From Fluviicola sp. (GTDB lineage Bacteria; Bacteroidota; Bacteroidia; Flavobacteriales_D; Crocinitomicaceae): a DNA stretch of 56,512 nt. Every line of letters starts with the position of its first letter. Position 1 is the first letter of the stretch. Shown here one piece after another: positions 3,023 through 52,847 of this stretch. The DNA is taken from assembly GCA_021300395.1 (NCBI GenBank), contig JAJTEO010000020.1:1-56512 (forward strand). The letters are read 5' to 3'. Both the position numbers and the translations under genes were made by a program. Under the pieces are notes generated by a model, which saw only the letters and a list, made by a program, of their open reading frames with translations, did no database searches and was not told where the DNA came from.

Positions 3023-3313
3023 ATGAAGATTACAGACGAAATCGTTGATCACATTGCTCATTTAGCTCGTTTAAAATTTGAAGGAGACAAAAAAGTAGCT
3101 ATCAAGGAAGATATGAATAACATCATTTCATTCATGGATAAATTGTCTGAAGTTCCAACAGATAATGTTGAACCTTTAATTTTTATGAGTGAAGAAATAA
3201 ACGTGCTTCGTGAAGATATTCCTGTGGTTTCATTAACACAAACGGAAGCACTTAAAAATGCTCCTAAAAAAGATTCAGATTATTTCAGAATCCCGAAAGT
3301 ATTAGACAAATAG
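3023..3313 (+). CDS. gatC: Asp-tRNA(Asn)/Glu-tRNA(Gln) amidotransferase subunit C
   Basis: A 96-residue protein that stabilises the GatAB amidotransferase, which converts mischarged Glu-tRNA(Gln) or Asp-tRNA(Asn). The family pattern is plain: an N-terminal helix (VDHIAHLARLKF), a middle helix (DMNNIISFMDKLSEVPTDNV), and the C-terminal DxxxxSLTQxEALxNAPxKDxDYFRIPKVL. The length is normal. gatA and gatB are not in the window, as is usual in Bacteroidota, where gatC is separate. It is followed by a 55-nt gap with a small hairpin and then DUF4286 and rsmA. Confidence 0.95.
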   Translation: MKITDEIVDHIAHLARLKFEGDKKVAIKEDMNNIISFMDKLSEVPTDNVEPLIFMSEEINVLREDIPVVSLTQTEALKNAPKKDSDYFRIPKVLDK

Positions 3314-3351
3314 TTGGCTGAGCGGAATCCGATCATTCGGATGAAGGCAAC
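3313..3351. repeat. Imperfect palindrome in the gatC-DUF4286 gap
   Basis: The inner stem ATCCGA/TCGGAT (3327-3332 and 3337-3342, loop TCAT) is perfect. The outer arms GTTGGCT and AGGCAAC pair with one mismatch. No T-tract follows, so it is not a canonical terminator. It could be an RNA-processing site or a REP-like element. Confidence 0.4.
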
Positions 3352-3368
3352 CTTTAATAAATATTAAA

Positions 3369-47565: not shown

Positions 47566-48432
47566 ATGATAAATTACAATCCTAAAAGCTGGCTTCATTT
47601 GATATTTGCTTTACATAAAAGCGATACACTTCGAATGCTTTGGAAAGAAATGATTTATATCTGTTTTTTCACTCTATTTATAACATTTGTTGTTCTTCAT
47701 TACTATCCAGAAAAGACGGTTTTAGGTGAGTTAAAAACAGTTTTTTCGTTGATCGGTTTTGTGATTTCGCTTTTGCTTGTTTTTAGAACAAATACAGCTT
47801 ACGATCGTTGGTGGGAAGGAAGAAGAAAATGGGGTGAAATGATTAATGATTCTAGAAATCTAAGTTCTAAATTATCAAGTTTATTAGTTGCGATTGATGA
47901 TAAAGAATTTTTCAAACGAATGATTCCAAATTTTGCATATAGTTCTAAAGAACATTTAAGAAGAGGAGTGAAATTTGAAGAATTAGATTTGAATCAAGAA
48001 GAACAGATTTATTTAGTAAGTCAAAAACACATTCCTTTGGCTATCACACAGATGATGTATGCTCGATTAATTGAATTAAAGAATACTGGAAAAATAACAG
48101 AAAATGATTTTTTGATAATTGATAGAAATTTAAATAATTTCATGGATTGTGTTGGGGCTTGTGAACGAATTAAAAATACACCCATTCCATTTTCATATAG
48201 TTTATTTATAAAAAAATTCATATTCATTTATGTAACAACATTACCCTTAGCATTTGTTACCATCTTTGGTTATGCTTCTGCTTTTATTGCAACTTACGTA
48301 TTTTATGTATTAGTTAGTATGGAAGTGTTAGCAGAAGAAATTGAAGATCCATTTGGAGTGGACGATAATGATTTACCAATGGATGCTATTTGCGATAAAA
48401 TAAAAGAAAGCGCTCAACAAATGCTGTCCTAA
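47566..48432 (+). CDS. Bestrophin family anion channel
   Basis: A 288-residue membrane protein related to eukaryotic bestrophins (bacterial type, formerly UPF0187). The family sequence FRTNTAYDRWWEGRRKWGEM is present, as are hydrophobic helices near 28-50, 68-85, 222-243 and 245-263, and the C-terminal EEIEDPFGVDDNDLPMDAIC, in which the acidic cluster forms the calcium-clasp-like region. It is predicted to conduct chloride or other anions. It is last in the purQ-bestrophin unit and ends in a 4-nt overlap with the convergent gene. Confidence 0.9.
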   Translation: MINYNPKSWLHLIFALHKSDTLRMLWKEMIYICFFTLFITFVVLHYYPEKTVLGELKTVFSLIGFVISLLLVFRTNTAYDRWWEGRRKWGEMINDSRNLSSKLSSLLVAIDDKEFFKRMIPNFAYSSKEHLRRGVKFEELDLNQEEQIYLVSQKHIPLAITQMMYARLIELKNTGKITENDFLIIDRNLNNFMDCVGACERIKNTPIPFSYSLFIKKFIFIYVTTLPLAFVTIFGYASAFIATYVFYVLVSMEVLAEEIEDPFGVDDNDLPMDAICDKIKESAQQMLS

Positions 48433-50006
48433 ATATCATTAGGAAAATACAGTTTATTTCCTGTTTCTATTTCTCTTTTAAACTTTGATTGAACAATTTC
48501 TTGAACGGTCTTATTTTCTATTTTACACTCCAACCAGGAAATAATGTCCAAATATAAGAATGGTCTTTTTTCAAATGGTTGTAAAGAAAGCTTTACTAAT
48601 TTGTGATGTAAGATTTTAAAAGCACGAATTAATTCTGAGTTGCTTGAAATCGGAAGAGAACGTAAAAAATTAAGAATCTCTTTCTGAACTCCATGTAAAT
48701 CGCCCATTTTAATTAAAAAACGGTAAACACTTTTGATTTGATACTCGACCAAATCATCATTTCCAAGTTCAAAATGTGCAATCAAATTCAAAATTCGAGC
48801 AAAGGATTGAATGTCTTCTCTTAATGTTTCTTCCTTAAACTGAATGACTTTATTTAAATACCAAATTGACTTTTTATTATCACCACTACCAAAGTAGAGA
48901 CAGGCAATTTTGTAATAAAAAACCATTATACGATGACTATCTAATTGATCCTCATATTTTTCAATGTAATTAATGATTTCAGGTACAATTTTTAAACCTT
49001 CTGTGAATGTTCCTTCTAGGTAATGTTTATTAATAAGATTTGAGTGAAGATATAAATTATGAAGAATCACTTCATTTTCAGGTTCCCGATTGGAAAAAGG
49101 ATAACTTTCAAGCTTTTTCAACTCTTCTGAAAAACGCTTATAACTTCTTAAATTGAATAATGCATTTAATAAATTATGGGTTCCTTTGAGATACATTTCT
49201 CGTTTAGAATCCTTCATTTCAGGATATTCCTCGAATAAATCAACCCAAAGTCGTGCGTATTTATAACACATTAAAAAATCTTGATTCATGTAATAAAACC
49301 AAACAAATGCATTATACAAATGCATTTTCTCTTCGAATTTCATTTCATCAATTCGATAAGGTTTTAAACGTGAATAGAAAAACTCTTTCGTAAATAAATA
49401 ATCTTTTTCATCCCTCGAAAATCCAACCTTCAAATAAAGTGCATACAACTGTAAAGCTAAGTTTGAATAATCGACTGAAGATTCAACATGACTTTGTAAT
49501 TGTGTGCTTTCAAGCGTTAATTCATCTGAACGTGTTACAATTGAACGTGTAATATATTGCGATTCAATGACTTTTTCAAATTCGACTATTTCCAAACAAA
49601 GAATTATAGAATTGGCTTTTTGAGCCAAAAGCTTTGCCTTATCGAGCATTTTTAAAGCTTGGTGATAAAATGCTTTTTGATATAAAACTGTTGAGAAATC
49701 AATTAATTCTCGGATTTCTATTTCAATATGGTGATTTGTATATTGTAAACGAAGGCTAGTTAATATTTGCTTGTATAAGTGTGCTTTGATATTCGATAAT
49801 TGGGACTTTTTAATTTCAGTCAATTTTAGAAGTGCAGCTTCATCCGAATAATTTGAAGTTTTATCAATAAAATCAAATAATTGTAAGAATTTTAATTCTT
49901 CTGGAGTTGAAGAATTTCTATTCGCATATAATTTAAAGCTTCTCTTTTCAGCTTTGGATAACGATTGAATTAGTTTAATTAAATTATCTGTTGTTGTTGT
50001 GGACAT
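48429..50006 (-). CDS. Large helical-repeat protein, conserved in Bacteroidota, unknown function
   Basis: A 525-residue cytosolic protein without a signal peptide or TM segment. Its N-terminus is basic (LIKLIQSLSKAEKRSFKLYA), and the rest is helix-rich, with many Leu/Tyr/Phe at repeating distances (KAFYHQALKMLDKAKLLAQK, ALYLKVGFSRDEKDYLFTKE, YLNKVIQFKEE). This is the look of TPR-like repeats. I have a recollection of such ~500-residue proteins in Bacteroidota genomes but cannot name a family. It could be a regulator or scaffold. It ends convergently with bestrophin in a 4-nt overlap. Confidence 0.65.
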   Translation of the reverse strand: MSTTTTDNLIKLIQSLSKAEKRSFKLYANRNSSTPEELKFLQLFDFIDKTSNYSDEAALLKLTEIKKSQLSNIKAHLYKQILTSLRLQYTNHHIEIEIRELIDFSTVLYQKAFYHQALKMLDKAKLLAQKANSIILCLEIVEFEKVIESQYITRSIVTRSDELTLESTQLQSHVESSVDYSNLALQLYALYLKVGFSRDEKDYLFTKEFFYSRLKPYRIDEMKFEEKMHLYNAFVWFYYMNQDFLMCYKYARLWVDLFEEYPEMKDSKREMYLKGTHNLLNALFNLRSYKRFSEELKKLESYPFSNREPENEVILHNLYLHSNLINKHYLEGTFTEGLKIVPEIINYIEKYEDQLDSHRIMVFYYKIACLYFGSGDNKKSIWYLNKVIQFKEETLREDIQSFARILNLIAHFELGNDDLVEYQIKSVYRFLIKMGDLHGVQKEILNFLRSLPISSNSELIRAFKILHHKLVKLSLQPFEKRPFLYLDIISWLECKIENKTVQEIVQSKFKREIETGNKLYFPNDI

Positions 50007-50108
50007 TGTAATTTAATACCTTTAAATATTGTTATAAATACTGTTAATCAACTGTTTATTTCCATTTTAATGAATTTGGACATCGTAATTATAAAAAACA
50101 ATTATTTC

Positions 50109-50136
50109 TTGAACTTGTCCTTTTCACTTAGTTTTG
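50109..50136 (+). promoter_or_regulatory. Promoter of the putative small RNA: TTG, 17 nt, TAGTTTTG
   Basis: TTG (50109-50111) and TAGTTTTG (50129-50136) are separated by 17 nt. This is a good Bacteroidota promoter in an intergenic region. It faces right, towards a hairpin cluster and a terminator. Confidence 0.55.
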
Positions 50137-50139
50137 CAA

Positions 50140-50322
50140 TGTGTTAAAAACACTAATGCATTTGAGAATCGTCTCAAACAAATATGCAAAAAATAAGTCA
50201 ATAAGTTTCAGTTTTTTGAAACAAAAAAATATTTAACTTCTTTACAAGAGTAGGGGTATTCTTGTATTATTTTCGGTTAACAGCAAAAAAAATCTCATTG
50301 ATATCTCGATGAGATTTTTTTT
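50140..50322 (+). ncRNA. Putative small RNA, about 183 nt
   Basis: In the 380-nt gap between two divergent genes (50007-50386) I see no protein-coding frame, but several hairpins in a row: GTGTT/AACAC (50141-50153); TTTGAGA-ATCG-TCTCAAA (50161-50178); GTTTCA/TGAAAC (50205-50222); and a 9-bp stem with one G-U pair and a GGGG loop (50244-50252 with 50257-50265). A terminator follows (50285-50322). A promoter lies just upstream (TTG-N17-TAGTTTTG). I do not recognise a known family: it lacks the tmRNA, RNase P, SRP or 6S hallmarks. Expression is not shown. Confidence 0.55.
50285..50322 (+). terminator. Rho-independent terminator in the 50.1-50.3 kb gap
   Basis: AAAAAAAATCTCAT (50285-50298) pairs with ATGAGATTTTTTTT (50309-50322); the loop is 10 nt and T run is long. 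No annotated gene ends here on either strand. Confidence 0.85.
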
Positions 50323-50369
50323 TAACCTTAAAGTTGATAAGCATCATGAATTTCAATAAAATTTATCAT

Positions 50370-50377
50370 TAGCTTTG
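50370..50377 (+). promoter_or_regulatory. -7 box TAGCTTTG upstream of the Cys-rich protein gene
   Basis: An exact TAnnTTTG match, 9 nt before the ATG at 50387. Confidence 0.5.
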
Positions 50378-50386
50378 TAACATAAT

Positions 50387-50779
50387 ATGAGGTATATATT
50401 TTTAATAGGATTTACATTCGTTATATGTTTGCAGTCTTTGCAAGGATTTATAACTATTTCTTATTGGAAATATAACCAAACTGAAATCACCAAAAAGTTC
50501 TGTGAGAACAAGGCGAAGCCAAAATTAAAGTGTAATGGTAAATGTCATTTAGCAAAACAGTTAAAGGCTCAGGATAATCAAGATGATTCTTCAAAAAGCA
50601 GTTTGCCAAAATTTAAAAAAGATGTTGAAATCAATTTAATTCATCAATCTATTGAAGAACCATCTTTTTCAAAAGTAGATTTTTACTCAAATAAACAATC
50701 ACAATTTTTCATAGTTAACAACTACGCATTCAAAAGTGTTAACGATTGTTTTCATCCCCCAAAATATCAATTCGTTTAA
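50387..50779 (+). CDS. Small Cys-rich membrane-anchored protein, likely copper-related
   Basis: A 130-residue protein with an N-terminal hydrophobic segment (about 2-22, RYIFLIGFTFVICLQSLQG) that may be a signal anchor. After it comes a conserved-looking block FCENKAKPKLKCNGKCHLAK with C39, C49, C53 and His54, and a C-terminal DCFHPP (C121, His123). I recall this short protein in Bacteroidota next to copper-linked genes; I have no family name. These residues could bind metal or make a disulfide. It is followed 178 nt later by an MbnP-like gene. Confidence 0.6.
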   Translation: MRYIFLIGFTFVICLQSLQGFITISYWKYNQTEITKKFCENKAKPKLKCNGKCHLAKQLKAQDNQDDSSKSSLPKFKKDVEINLIHQSIEEPSFSKVDFYSNKQSQFFIVNNYAFKSVNDCFHPPKYQFV

Positions 50780-50780
50780 T

Positions 50781-50795
50781 GAGGTTATTAACCTC
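50781..50795. other. Short hairpin after the Cys-rich protein gene
   Basis: GAGGTT/AACCTC with a 3-nt loop directly after the stop codon. There is no real T-tract, so this is at best a weak terminator or a processing site. Confidence 0.35.
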
Positions 50796-50957
50796 AAATT
50801 TCTAGGTGATTCAATATTCTTGAACTAGGTTTTTCAAGGGTTGAATTATTATTCAAATTTTAAATTATCATTAGGGTATTTCTATATGATAATGAATTAG
50901 TTAAATGATTAATGTCATCTTGAATTTCAAGTTGATTAATAGATATTATATATAAAA

Positions 50958-51758
50958 ATGAAAACAATTATTTTAAAATTTATTGCGGTAGCGGTTGTAT
51001 TAGTTTCAGTAATGACTTCTTGTAATAAAGATAAAACAGAGGATCCTGAAACACCTTCACCAACTCCAACAGTTGTTGAAAAAGGTACTGTTACAATCGA
51101 CTTATCTCATAAATGGGGTTTCAGTAATGAAACTGATTTTGTTTTAGGGATCGATTTAATTCATCCCATGAAACATGATACTTTGAATTTTACAAAACTA
51201 AAGTATTACATTTCAAATGTGAAATTGAAAAAAGCAGATGGAACCTGGTTTACTCAAACAGAAAGTTATCATTTAATTGATTTATCAGAAGTTAGTTCAT
51301 TAGCTATTACATTAAACGATGTTCCAGTTGGCGATTATACTGATGTTTATTTCACAATGGGTGTAGATTCTACAAGAAATGTTTCTGGTGCCCAAGCTGG
51401 TGCTTTAGCAACTTCTAATGGAATGTTTTGGAGTTGGAATTCAGGATATATTATGTTAAAAGCAGAAGGAACTTCAATTAATTCTACTTCAGGAAGTTTT
51501 GCTTTTCATTTAGGTGGGTTTTCTGGTGTGAATAATATTGTAACTGAAAAGTATGTTCAATTTGCTGGTAATAATTTAACGGTTACTAAGAATCATACTT
51601 CTAGCGCTTTTCTTCAAGTTAATCCAGGTTGGTTATGGCATTCAGCTCCAAGTGTAAGTGTGTTAAATACAGTTCACATGCCAGGAACAGATGCTAAAAC
51701 AATGGCAGATGGATTCTTTACTAATAATTCAATTACATTGGATCATATTGTTGAATAA
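50958..51758 (+). CDS. MbnP-like copper-binding lipoprotein
   Basis: A 266-residue protein with a lipobox (VMTSC, Cys22), a Pro/Thr linker and the MbnP-family body: TVTIDLSHKWGF, LNFTKLKYYISNVKLKKADG, and the Trp-rich motif GMFWSWNSGYIMLKAEG (W158, W160). In the methanotroph system the MbnP partner enzyme MbnH turns a Trp of MbnP into kynurenine, which helps bind copper. A similar job is inferred here, as an MbnH-like gene follows. The residue modified cannot be read from the sequence; W158/W160 are candidates. Confidence 0.8.
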   Translation: MKTIILKFIAVAVVLVSVMTSCNKDKTEDPETPSPTPTVVEKGTVTIDLSHKWGFSNETDFVLGIDLIHPMKHDTLNFTKLKYYISNVKLKKADGTWFTQTESYHLIDLSEVSSLAITLNDVPVGDYTDVYFTMGVDSTRNVSGAQAGALATSNGMFWSWNSGYIMLKAEGTSINSTSGSFAFHLGGFSGVNNIVTEKYVQFAGNNLTVTKNHTSSAFLQVNPGWLWHSAPSVSVLNTVHMPGTDAKTMADGFFTNNSITLDHIVE

Positions 51759-51764
51759 ATTTTT

Positions 51765-51797
51765 AAATGGCTCTTTAATAATAAAGAGCCATTTTTT
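51765..51797 (+). terminator. Terminator or attenuator between the mbnP-like and mbnH-like genes
   Basis: A perfect 13-bp stem AAATGGCTCTTTA/TAAAGAGCCATTT (51765-51777 and 51782-51794) with loop ATAA and a T-tract. It separates two genes expected to act together, so it may set their ratio. Confidence 0.85.
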
Positions 51798-51815
51798 ATC
51801 TAATTTGAATGTATT

Positions 51816-52847
51816 ATGAAACAATTTGTACTCTATTTATTTATTGTTTTTTTTGTTTTAAGTTGCAAAAAGAAAACAGTGGAAGTTAAAGTATATAGCG
51901 AAAGTGATCGATGGGGTTTTGAATCGCCTTCACATTTTCCTTCACCTGATTATCAGTTTGTAAACAATGAACAAACTAGGTTGCGTTTTGAATTAGGACG
52001 ATATTTGTTTTATGATACATTGTTATCTTCTGATCAAACGGTGTCGTGTTCAAGTTGTCACGCTCAAGCTCATGCATTTGCAGATCATAATGTGAAATTT
52101 AGCAAAGGGGTTGGAGGTGTTTTAGGTCATCGAAATGCACCAGCATTGTCAAATTTAGCATGGTATCCAAATTTTATGTGGGATGGAGGAGTAAATCATC
52201 TTGAAGTACAGCCACTCGCTCCATTAACCAATCCATTGGAAATGAATGAAACGATGTCGAATGTTGTATCTAAGTTGAATGCGAGTAGTTTTTATAAGGA
52301 AAAATTTAAATCAGCATACGGTATTGATGAAATAACAGATCAAAAGTTTTTACAGGCTTTGGCTCAATTTACATCAATGTTAATTTCTTCCAATACTAAG
52401 TATGATCAATACTTAACAGGAACAACAACTTTTACAGATAAAGAAACTAGAGGTTTACAATTGTTTAGAGATAATTGTGCTCATTGTCATAAAGAACCTT
52501 TGTTGACAGATTTCTCTTTTAGAAATAGCGGTGTTGAAACAACAATCGTTGATATAGGTAGAGAGTTGATAACGCAAGATCCAAATGATAAAGGAAAATT
52601 TAAAGTTCCTTCACTTCGTAATATTGATTTGACATATCCATATATGCATGATGGACGGTTTTTTACTTTAACTCAAGTAGTTGATTTTTATTCGGATGGT
52701 ATTCAACAATCTGCAACAGTTGATCCAACTTTAGGTGATGGATTTCATTTCACATCTCAAGAAAAATTAGATTTGATTGCTTTTTTGAAAACGTTAACCG
52801 ATTATTATTTAATAGGTAATCCAGATTTTTCTGAACCTAAGCGTTAA
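51816..52847 (+). CDS. MauG/MbnH-like di-heme cytochrome c peroxidase lipoprotein
   Basis: A 343-residue lipoprotein (FFVLSC, Cys17) with two CxxCH heme motifs: C78/C81/H82 in CSSCH and C221/C224/H225 in CAHCH. Further family features are RNAPALSNLAWYPNF, VPSLRNIDLTYPYMHDGRFF (Y276, M277, H278 near the second heme). MauG/MbnH enzymes oxidise a protein partner with peroxide. The adjacent MbnP-like gene makes an MbnH assignment likely, but ordinary bacterial cytochrome c peroxidase is the alternative. Its end overlaps the end of the next, convergent gene by 11 nt. Confidence 0.82.
   Translation: MKQFVLYLFIVFFVLSCKKKTVEVKVYSESDRWGFESPSHFPSPDYQFVNNEQTRLRFELGRYLFYDTLLSSDQTVSCSSCHAQAHAFADHNVKFSKGVGGVLGHRNAPALSNLAWYPNFMWDGGVNHLEVQPLAPLTNPLEMNETMSNVVSKLNASSFYKEKFKSAYGIDEITDQKFLQALAQFTSMLISSNTKYDQYLTGTTTFTDKETRGLQLFRDNCAHCHKEPLLTDFSFRNSGVETTIVDIGRELITQDPNDKGKFKVPSLRNIDLTYPYMHDGRFFTLTQVVDFYSDGIQQSATVDPTLGDGFHFTSQEKLDLIAFLKTLTDYYLIGNPDFSEPKR

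Follow-up and report, generated by a model that had tools for sequence, protein, structure and literature searches.

Our results suggest that the intergenic gap described in Table 1 very probably holds a small-RNA gene that matches no known family. The gap lies in the window, by which we mean the whole 56,512-nt stretch of Crocinitomicaceae DNA (deposited as Fluviicola sp.) that was analysed. We consider it rather likely that the product of this gene is a small RNA peculiar to the lineage and acting in trans, controlled by the divergently encoded TPR-type protein and pairing with mRNAs without Hfq. The independent gene with its own promoter and terminator at about 50141-50322, which a first-pass annotation had proposed, was borne out on sequence grounds by comparison across 28 genomes. 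To the right of the gap, positions 50387-52847 encode a small cysteine-containing protein, then an MbnP-like and then an MbnH/MauG-like di-haem protein, a copper-related cassette.

Table 1. Elements of the predicted small-RNA locus in the window (putative and predicted features are named as such).
Feature	Position	Strand	Remarks
Intergenic gap	50007-50386		between minus-strand gene 48429-50006 and plus-strand gene 50387-50779
-7 promoter box TAGTTTTG (TAnnTTTG type) of predicted small RNA	50129-50136	+	
Promoter-like string TTG-N17-TAGTTTTG	50109-50136	+	
-33 region TTTCTTG	50105-50111	+	from ungapped alignment of 28 loci
Predicted small RNA, about 182 nt	50141-50322	+	start from -7 box, end from terminator, 28 homologous units
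Variable 5' part, hairpins 1-3	50141-50243	+	varies among genera and partly inside the window's genus
Hairpins 1, 2 and 3	~50141-50153, ~50157-50188, ~50205-50222		minimum-energy fold
Core hairpin ACAAGAGUA-GGGG-UAUUCUUGU	50244-50265	+	covariance model R1, 9 pairs
Conserved linker, 19 nt, AUUAUUUUCGGUUAACAGC	50266-50284	+	commonest form UUUUCGAUUAAUAGC
Intrinsic terminator	50285-50322	+	A-tract, stem-loop, T-run
Motif copy 1, putative operator, GTGGACATTGTAAT	49999-50012	+	overlaps start codon of minus-strand gene
Motif copy 2, putative operator, TTGGACATCGTAAT	50076-50089	+	
525-aa all-helical TPR-like protein, putative regulator of the small RNA	48429-50006	-	

The elements that had been read from the window itself were all recovered. 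The gap contained no frame of at least 60 amino acids, as claimed, and five frames of 20-31 codons; these short frames are known from the window only, and the frame test across genomes covers the core. There, a conserved coding frame was ruled out, since the lengths of the hairpin plus linker among relatives (41, 44, 45, 46, 47 and 48 nt) break any frame. The promoter-like TTG-N17-TAGTTTTG was found at 50109-50136, and the minimum-energy fold of 50140-50322 included the terminator and all four of the hairpins, the fourth (GGGG loop) at about 50243-50266. This RNA folded at -45.5 kcal/mol, compared to -24.4 +/- 3.5 in shuffles (z -6.0, 0/200 as low), and with the terminator removed z was still -3.6 (0/200 as low).

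No Rfam family reached its gathering score in the window, and the 12 weak matches in 50000-50400 were all under cut-off. The 6S, tmRNA and other Rfam families were rejected. FopS (RF04319) scored 23.4 bits against a cut-off of 56, on the opposite strand. 6S-Flavo (RF01685) gave nothing above cut-off in 10 genomes; note that 14 control genomes gave no true positive for this family either. No description of the RNA appeared among the papers listed for Fluviicola small RNAs (judged by title), Crocinitomicaceae noncoding RNA and flavobacterial sRNAs, a search made largely outside subscription papers.

Comparison of genomes shows the unit, its conservation, its strict neighbourhood and the motif pair with its geometry. 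We built a covariance model of the hairpin and linker, R1, from 10 sequences; against the window, whose sequence is among these ten, it scored 67.2 bits (50240-50287). At E<=0.01, R1 matched 30 of 240 family genomes, and in 28 of the 30 the match adjoined an orthologue of the regulator. The matches in the other two (G193 and G032, E ~0.007) were discarded as chance because no regulator orthologue was adjacent. The RNA unit was therefore assigned to 28/240 Crocinitomicaceae genomes (Fluviicola, Taishania, the window's genus and others), and all 28 units are divergent from the orthologue of the 525-aa gene 48429-50006. When 399 genomes drawn from the order were searched at E<=0.001, R1 matched 25, every one inside the family. 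The predicted RNA measures 82-197 nt across the 28 genomes, with one locus per genome (G003 has two near-identical contigs).

Other searches gave the same picture from other starting points. A DNA search of 119 genomes (that of the window plus relatives) found a match at E<=0.01 in 43, mostly short AT-rich pieces. Four genomes of the window's genus (G003, G010, G006 and G011) matched most of the query or the two thirds at its 3' end, and G005 plus five genomes of other genera matched at about positions 152-205 of the query (50241-50294 of the window). The regulator orthologue, at >=52% identity, was present in 17 of the 119 genomes, and the gap holds the core hairpin, linker and terminator in 17/17; GGGG closes the core hairpin in 15 of these, with other loops in G014 and G035. 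Within the window's genus, six of 12 genomes had both orthologue and RNA and six had neither. A pattern scan of an 84,980-species collection returned 22 stretches. The orthologue was adjacent in 20, and the sequence of L115 ends before the regulator. The Nostoc stretch L105 was rejected as a chance match, having no regulator and reading as coding by eye. No viral contig matched. Records titled Glaciecola amylolytica (CP034120; L114), Chryseobacterium gleum (L103 and L111) and Actinomyces viscosus (L121) also contain the RNA-regulator locus; protein identity at this locus is 66-98%, and these records are probably mislabelled assemblies.

As its alignments describe it, the RNA is a variable front joined to a fixed rear. 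The importance given to all four stems by the first-pass annotation did not hold: across genera only the GGGG hairpin, the linker and the terminator are kept, and hairpins 1-3 vary. Of the 14 Fluviicola-genus genomes with a match we aligned 13 (G148 was omitted, its RNA being the same as that of G143). In this alignment the 38-nt hairpin-plus-linker is invariant except for one 1-nt gap, and the 5' part and the terminator stem diverge. Taken as a whole, the structure is paired in 90.5% of cells, compared to 86.9 +/- 0.6 in shuffles (0/500) and at most 54% in slid versions, with pairing of just 54-64% in the 5' helices and no variation at all in the core hairpin. In the window's genus (5 sequences), the core hairpin, the terminator and the two-pair helix 3 are 100% paired, helix 1 85%, and helices 2, 4 and 5 73-80%.

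Compensatory changes, which the first-pass annotation had named as support, were seen in some stems and hardly in others. Nine pairs changed on both sides in the Fluviicola alignment, five in the 5' hairpin and four in the terminator, a number reached by 6/500 shuffles (slid versions, up to 6). Across genera, the 9-pair core hairpin is paired in 98.6% of cells with two pairs changed on both sides, equalled by 32/500 shuffles; its covariation is modest because it hardly varies. Two-sided changes in the window's genus were no more than in shuffles (136/500). A T-run preceded by a stem-loop lies 57-72 nt after the core start in 28/28 loci (-12.9 to -21.5 kcal/mol; the best T-run was picked per locus, and the figures are without shuffle control), and the terminator stem sequences differ among the 28. 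In the window's own fold six bases of the linker pair with 50233-50238; in many relatives the linker is unpaired.

Promoter geometry is conserved too. The -7 box starts 53 bp past motif copy 2 in 25 of the 28 genomes, where it matches TAnnTTTG at 6/6 positions in 6 and at 5/6 in 19; the distance is 54 bp in G054 and G142, and the box of G145 is degenerate (4/6 positions). A TTT 22-24 bp upstream of the box is also conserved (consensus of 14 of the 28 loci, which were aligned without gaps). A study of Flavobacterium psychrophilum gives TAnnTTTG at -12 to -5 as the sigma-A consensus (PMC9723704), and because of this placement the predicted start is 50141 and copy 2 is centred near -58. The promoter is not shared with a fixed downstream gene, no single gene being next among the 17 loci read.

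The DNA from the regulator start to the RNA carries two copies of TTGGRYATYGTAAW, and part of copy 1 doubles as start-codon sequence. They are 77 bp apart in the window and 77-79 bp apart in 27/28 genomes (88 in G141). A pair occurred at such spacings in 2/7000 resampled regions, a control that is partly dependent, since the loci that supplied the motif consensus also supplied the spacings. Moreover, the window contains four motif matches with at most one mismatch, compared to 0.7 expected, and 0/100 shuffles reached four. When copy 2 plus promoter was used as a pattern in 18 genomes, the sRNA promoter was recovered in 12 of the 13 genomes that have the sRNA; in the five others the promoter of the regulator was found in none (0/5). 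Scattered extra matches were present in each of the 18, one of them recurring in four genomes of the window's genus (G000, G003, G006 and G010).

The 525-aa neighbour had no Pfam match. Against NF058569, the BT2802 ribose-utilisation family, residues 5-504 scored 119.6 bits with a cut-off of 550, so by score the protein would be a distant relative only of the BT2802 family. Its AlphaFold model is all helix (mean pLDDT 78, pTM 0.61). Profile searches gave weak matches to TPR proteins, and fold searches weak, generic TPR matches, with eukaryotic LGN first and the bacterial regulators Rap and NprR included. Since no DNA-binding part was recognised by Pfam or among the fold matches, we call it a regulator on the strength of the motif pair, its divergent arrangement and its distant family relationship.

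For the working of the locus we infer transcription, binding by the neighbour, activation, mRNA pairing and the identity of the targets. Transcription from the sigma-A-type promoter at 50105-50136 would run for about 182 nt and stop at the terminator (50322). Its working part would be the GGGG-loop hairpin plus the linker UUUUCGRUUARYAGC, leaving the 5' part free to vary. The divergently encoded TPR-type protein (48429-50006) most likely controls transcription through the two motif copies, which would lie on the same DNA face. The copy over the protein's own start codon would serve autoregulation, and the other, with its centre some 58 bp before the RNA start, activation; this is a usual place for an activator. 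The RNA would then pair with mRNAs through loop and linker, probably independently of Hfq: no Hfq match was found in 12/12 genomes searched, in a search whose control matched 5 of 14 named genomes.

We also looked for mRNA partners of the RNA, in searches that were narrow. Linker complements with at most one mismatch were sought in 11 genomes, and of the 40 places listed, the 30 inspected included none that recurred near gene starts beyond near-identical genomes. The matches were to the RNA gene itself and to scattered places, mostly inside coding frames. One complement is found again in G000, G003 and G010, three genomes that hardly differ at this place; it lies in a 419-codon frame, 68 nt from its start. 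The RNA was tested against the mRNA of the regulator in 8 genomes and paired no better than shuffles did (z +2.1 to -1.4), and direct action on this mRNA was rejected.

The main rival to mRNA pairing, which we regard as unlikely, is that the RNA acts by binding a protein, either titrating its TPR neighbour or binding RNA polymerase as 6S does. The near-invariance of stem and linker is what protein binding would demand, the RNA is strictly the neighbour of one protein gene, and no mRNA target emerged from the searches made. However, the fold lacks a 6S-like rod, 6S-Flavo was without a match above cut-off in the 10 genomes, and 13 of the 30 regulator loci read are without the exact RNA core, including those beside leu and fabH genes.

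A weight matrix from the sRNA loci was applied to 19 more distant orthologues of the regulator. Two motif copies scored above threshold in nine, 67-68 bp (six) or 79-80 bp (three) apart, and all nine had a -7-like box 52-53 bp past copy 2 that matched at 4 to 6 of 6 positions (G080: 4/6); in the other ten no second copy was above threshold. The spacings 67, 78 and 88 would differ by about one DNA turn each. The gene divergent from these nine, labelled by eye, was LeuA-like in one, a small LeuB-like protein in five and fabH in three. Profiles confirmed fabH in G060 (under the family cut-off), G068, G090, G080 and G030, and the check also covered the LeuA fragment of G019. Among four small LeuB-like proteins, two matched Iso_dh at E 0.03 and 0.06 and two had no match. 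By eye, the 74-96 aa proteins divergent from the regulator orthologue in L056, L057, L060, L063, L064 and L065 resemble the N-terminus of isopropylmalate dehydrogenase; G019 has a comparable 83-aa protein after leuB (L132:3488-3739).

In a tree of 37 proteins, which took in 16 of the 28 sRNA-linked regulators, these 16 form one clade (99/99). It adjoins a clade with leu or LeuB-like genes, in which a single entry, the long-branched G060, has fabH instead; in the next clade out fabH is the neighbour in 5/6. The G081 regulator is placed as sister to the sRNA clade with weak support (80/57). In G059 (L067 ~3178-3352) and G081 (L054 ~3159-3278) a promoter and a strong terminator enclose, in the same place next to the regulator, an unrelated-looking unit of 120-175 nt. 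R1 gave a terminator-only match in G059 (E 0.038) and, in G081, one well beyond the unit (E 3.5). These units may be diverged homologues or independently gained small RNAs.

From this we put forward, tentatively and as a possibility less probable than its opposite, that an old local circuit of one TPR-type regulator, two phased operators and one divergent promoter switched its output in the course of evolution. Leucine genes or fabH would have given way to a non-coding RNA as the single output of the regulator that is still conserved, and this RNA would control branched-chain amino-acid or lipid metabolism post-transcriptionally. The leuC gene is present in 7/119 relatives, three of which carry the RNA (G005, G006 and G010); in these three the leu genes lie apart from the regulator and leuA is not preceded by a motif pair. 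For a leucine operon as present-day target this gives no support either way. The unlinked leuA genes of G006, G005 and G010 share, by eye, a similar leader around GAAGTTTGT (L129, L130 and L131, last ~130 bases before 3693, 305 and 849), perhaps a separate control element.

The same loci could be read in another way, namely that transcription from this promoter formerly extended into the leucine operon, which would make the RNA a terminated leader (an attenuator remnant), acting in cis or left as mere debris. We hold this to be improbable. The similar promoter layout before LeuA-like and small LeuB-like genes at the more distant orthologues and the absence of leuC from most relatives agree with it, but the genes after the terminator in the 17 loci read are MbnP-type, convergent or other genes, the core is invariant across species, unlike debris, and the unlinked leuA leaders described above have no such core by eye.

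Folding by itself does not give the strand, since the opposite strand folds nearly equally well (z -5.3), and the generic terminator scan listed none within 49000-51500; note that the sigma-70 scan of the generic tool does not include the Bacteroidota promoter type found here. Both results would suit an untranscribed conserved DNA element or a chance fold in an AT-rich gap. We give this very little credence: in 28 genomes promoter, core and terminator follow one another in a constant order and the spacing of the promoter is kept, on which our choice of strand and boundaries rests, and the terminator stem changes with compensatory pairs. Least probable of all is the first-pass suggestion that the RNA regulates the adjacent copper-protein (MbnP/MauG-like) cassette, which adjoins it in the window genome (G000), G003 and G011 but was abandoned as a general role because 25 of the 28 RNA loci have no MbnP match inside ~1.5 kb on either side. 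The conserved partner is the opposite neighbour of the RNA, minus-strand gene 48429-50006, and the paired motif lies between this gene and the RNA.

The trans-acting RNA proposed here would be of interest for several reasons. To our knowledge, few small RNAs have been described in Bacteroidota outside Bacteroides and Flavobacterium, and the hosts of this RNA-regulator pair belong to a family of freshwater and soil bacteria. The near-invariant 38-nt core, the single place per genome, the obvious candidate regulator and the named species Fluviicola chungangensis and Taishania pollutisoli make control and targets directly testable. Moreover, one regulator and one promoter layout would here be shared by enzyme genes in some clades and by an RNA in a different clade.

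Several known systems can be set beside this one. The distant family match of the 525-aa protein recalls RusR of Bacteroides thetaiotaomicron, which we take to be BT2802, although the protein lies far under the family cut-off (119.6 versus 550 bits) and the neighbours of its relatives here are leucine-type genes, fatty-acid genes or the RNA. RusR is described as a regulator of ribose scavenging (PMC12596196), and literature searches for the BT2802 protein or a leucine regulator of its kind gave nothing beyond this description of RusR. 6S-Flavo is likewise a non-coding RNA of Bacteroidota (PMC2864571), although the RNA here has no 6S-like rod or match above cut-off in 10 genomes. Rfp18 of Flavobacterium, compared by description only, is likewise structured, and its conservation is known within one genus of this order (PMC9723704), whereas R1 finds nothing outside Crocinitomicaceae among 399 genomes. 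GibS of B. thetaiotaomicron is an intergenic sRNA with a terminator, a conserved unpaired stretch and no obvious Hfq; the GibS seed, however, lies in the 5' part (PMC7366714), whereas in our RNA this part is variable and conservation is found next to the terminator. By analogy, the most economical reading of our locus would be a regulator-sRNA pair of the GcvA/GcvB type. GcvA is a LysR-type factor, whereas the neighbour here is TPR-like; the two systems share no sequence family, Hfq was not found here, and the control that we suggest is proposed from layout. Escherichia coli gcvB is divergent from gcvA, the gene of its activator, and it is in this arrangement, a free-standing sRNA divergent from an adjacent regulator gene across a common intergenic region, that the 28/28 loci resemble it (PMC1557403).
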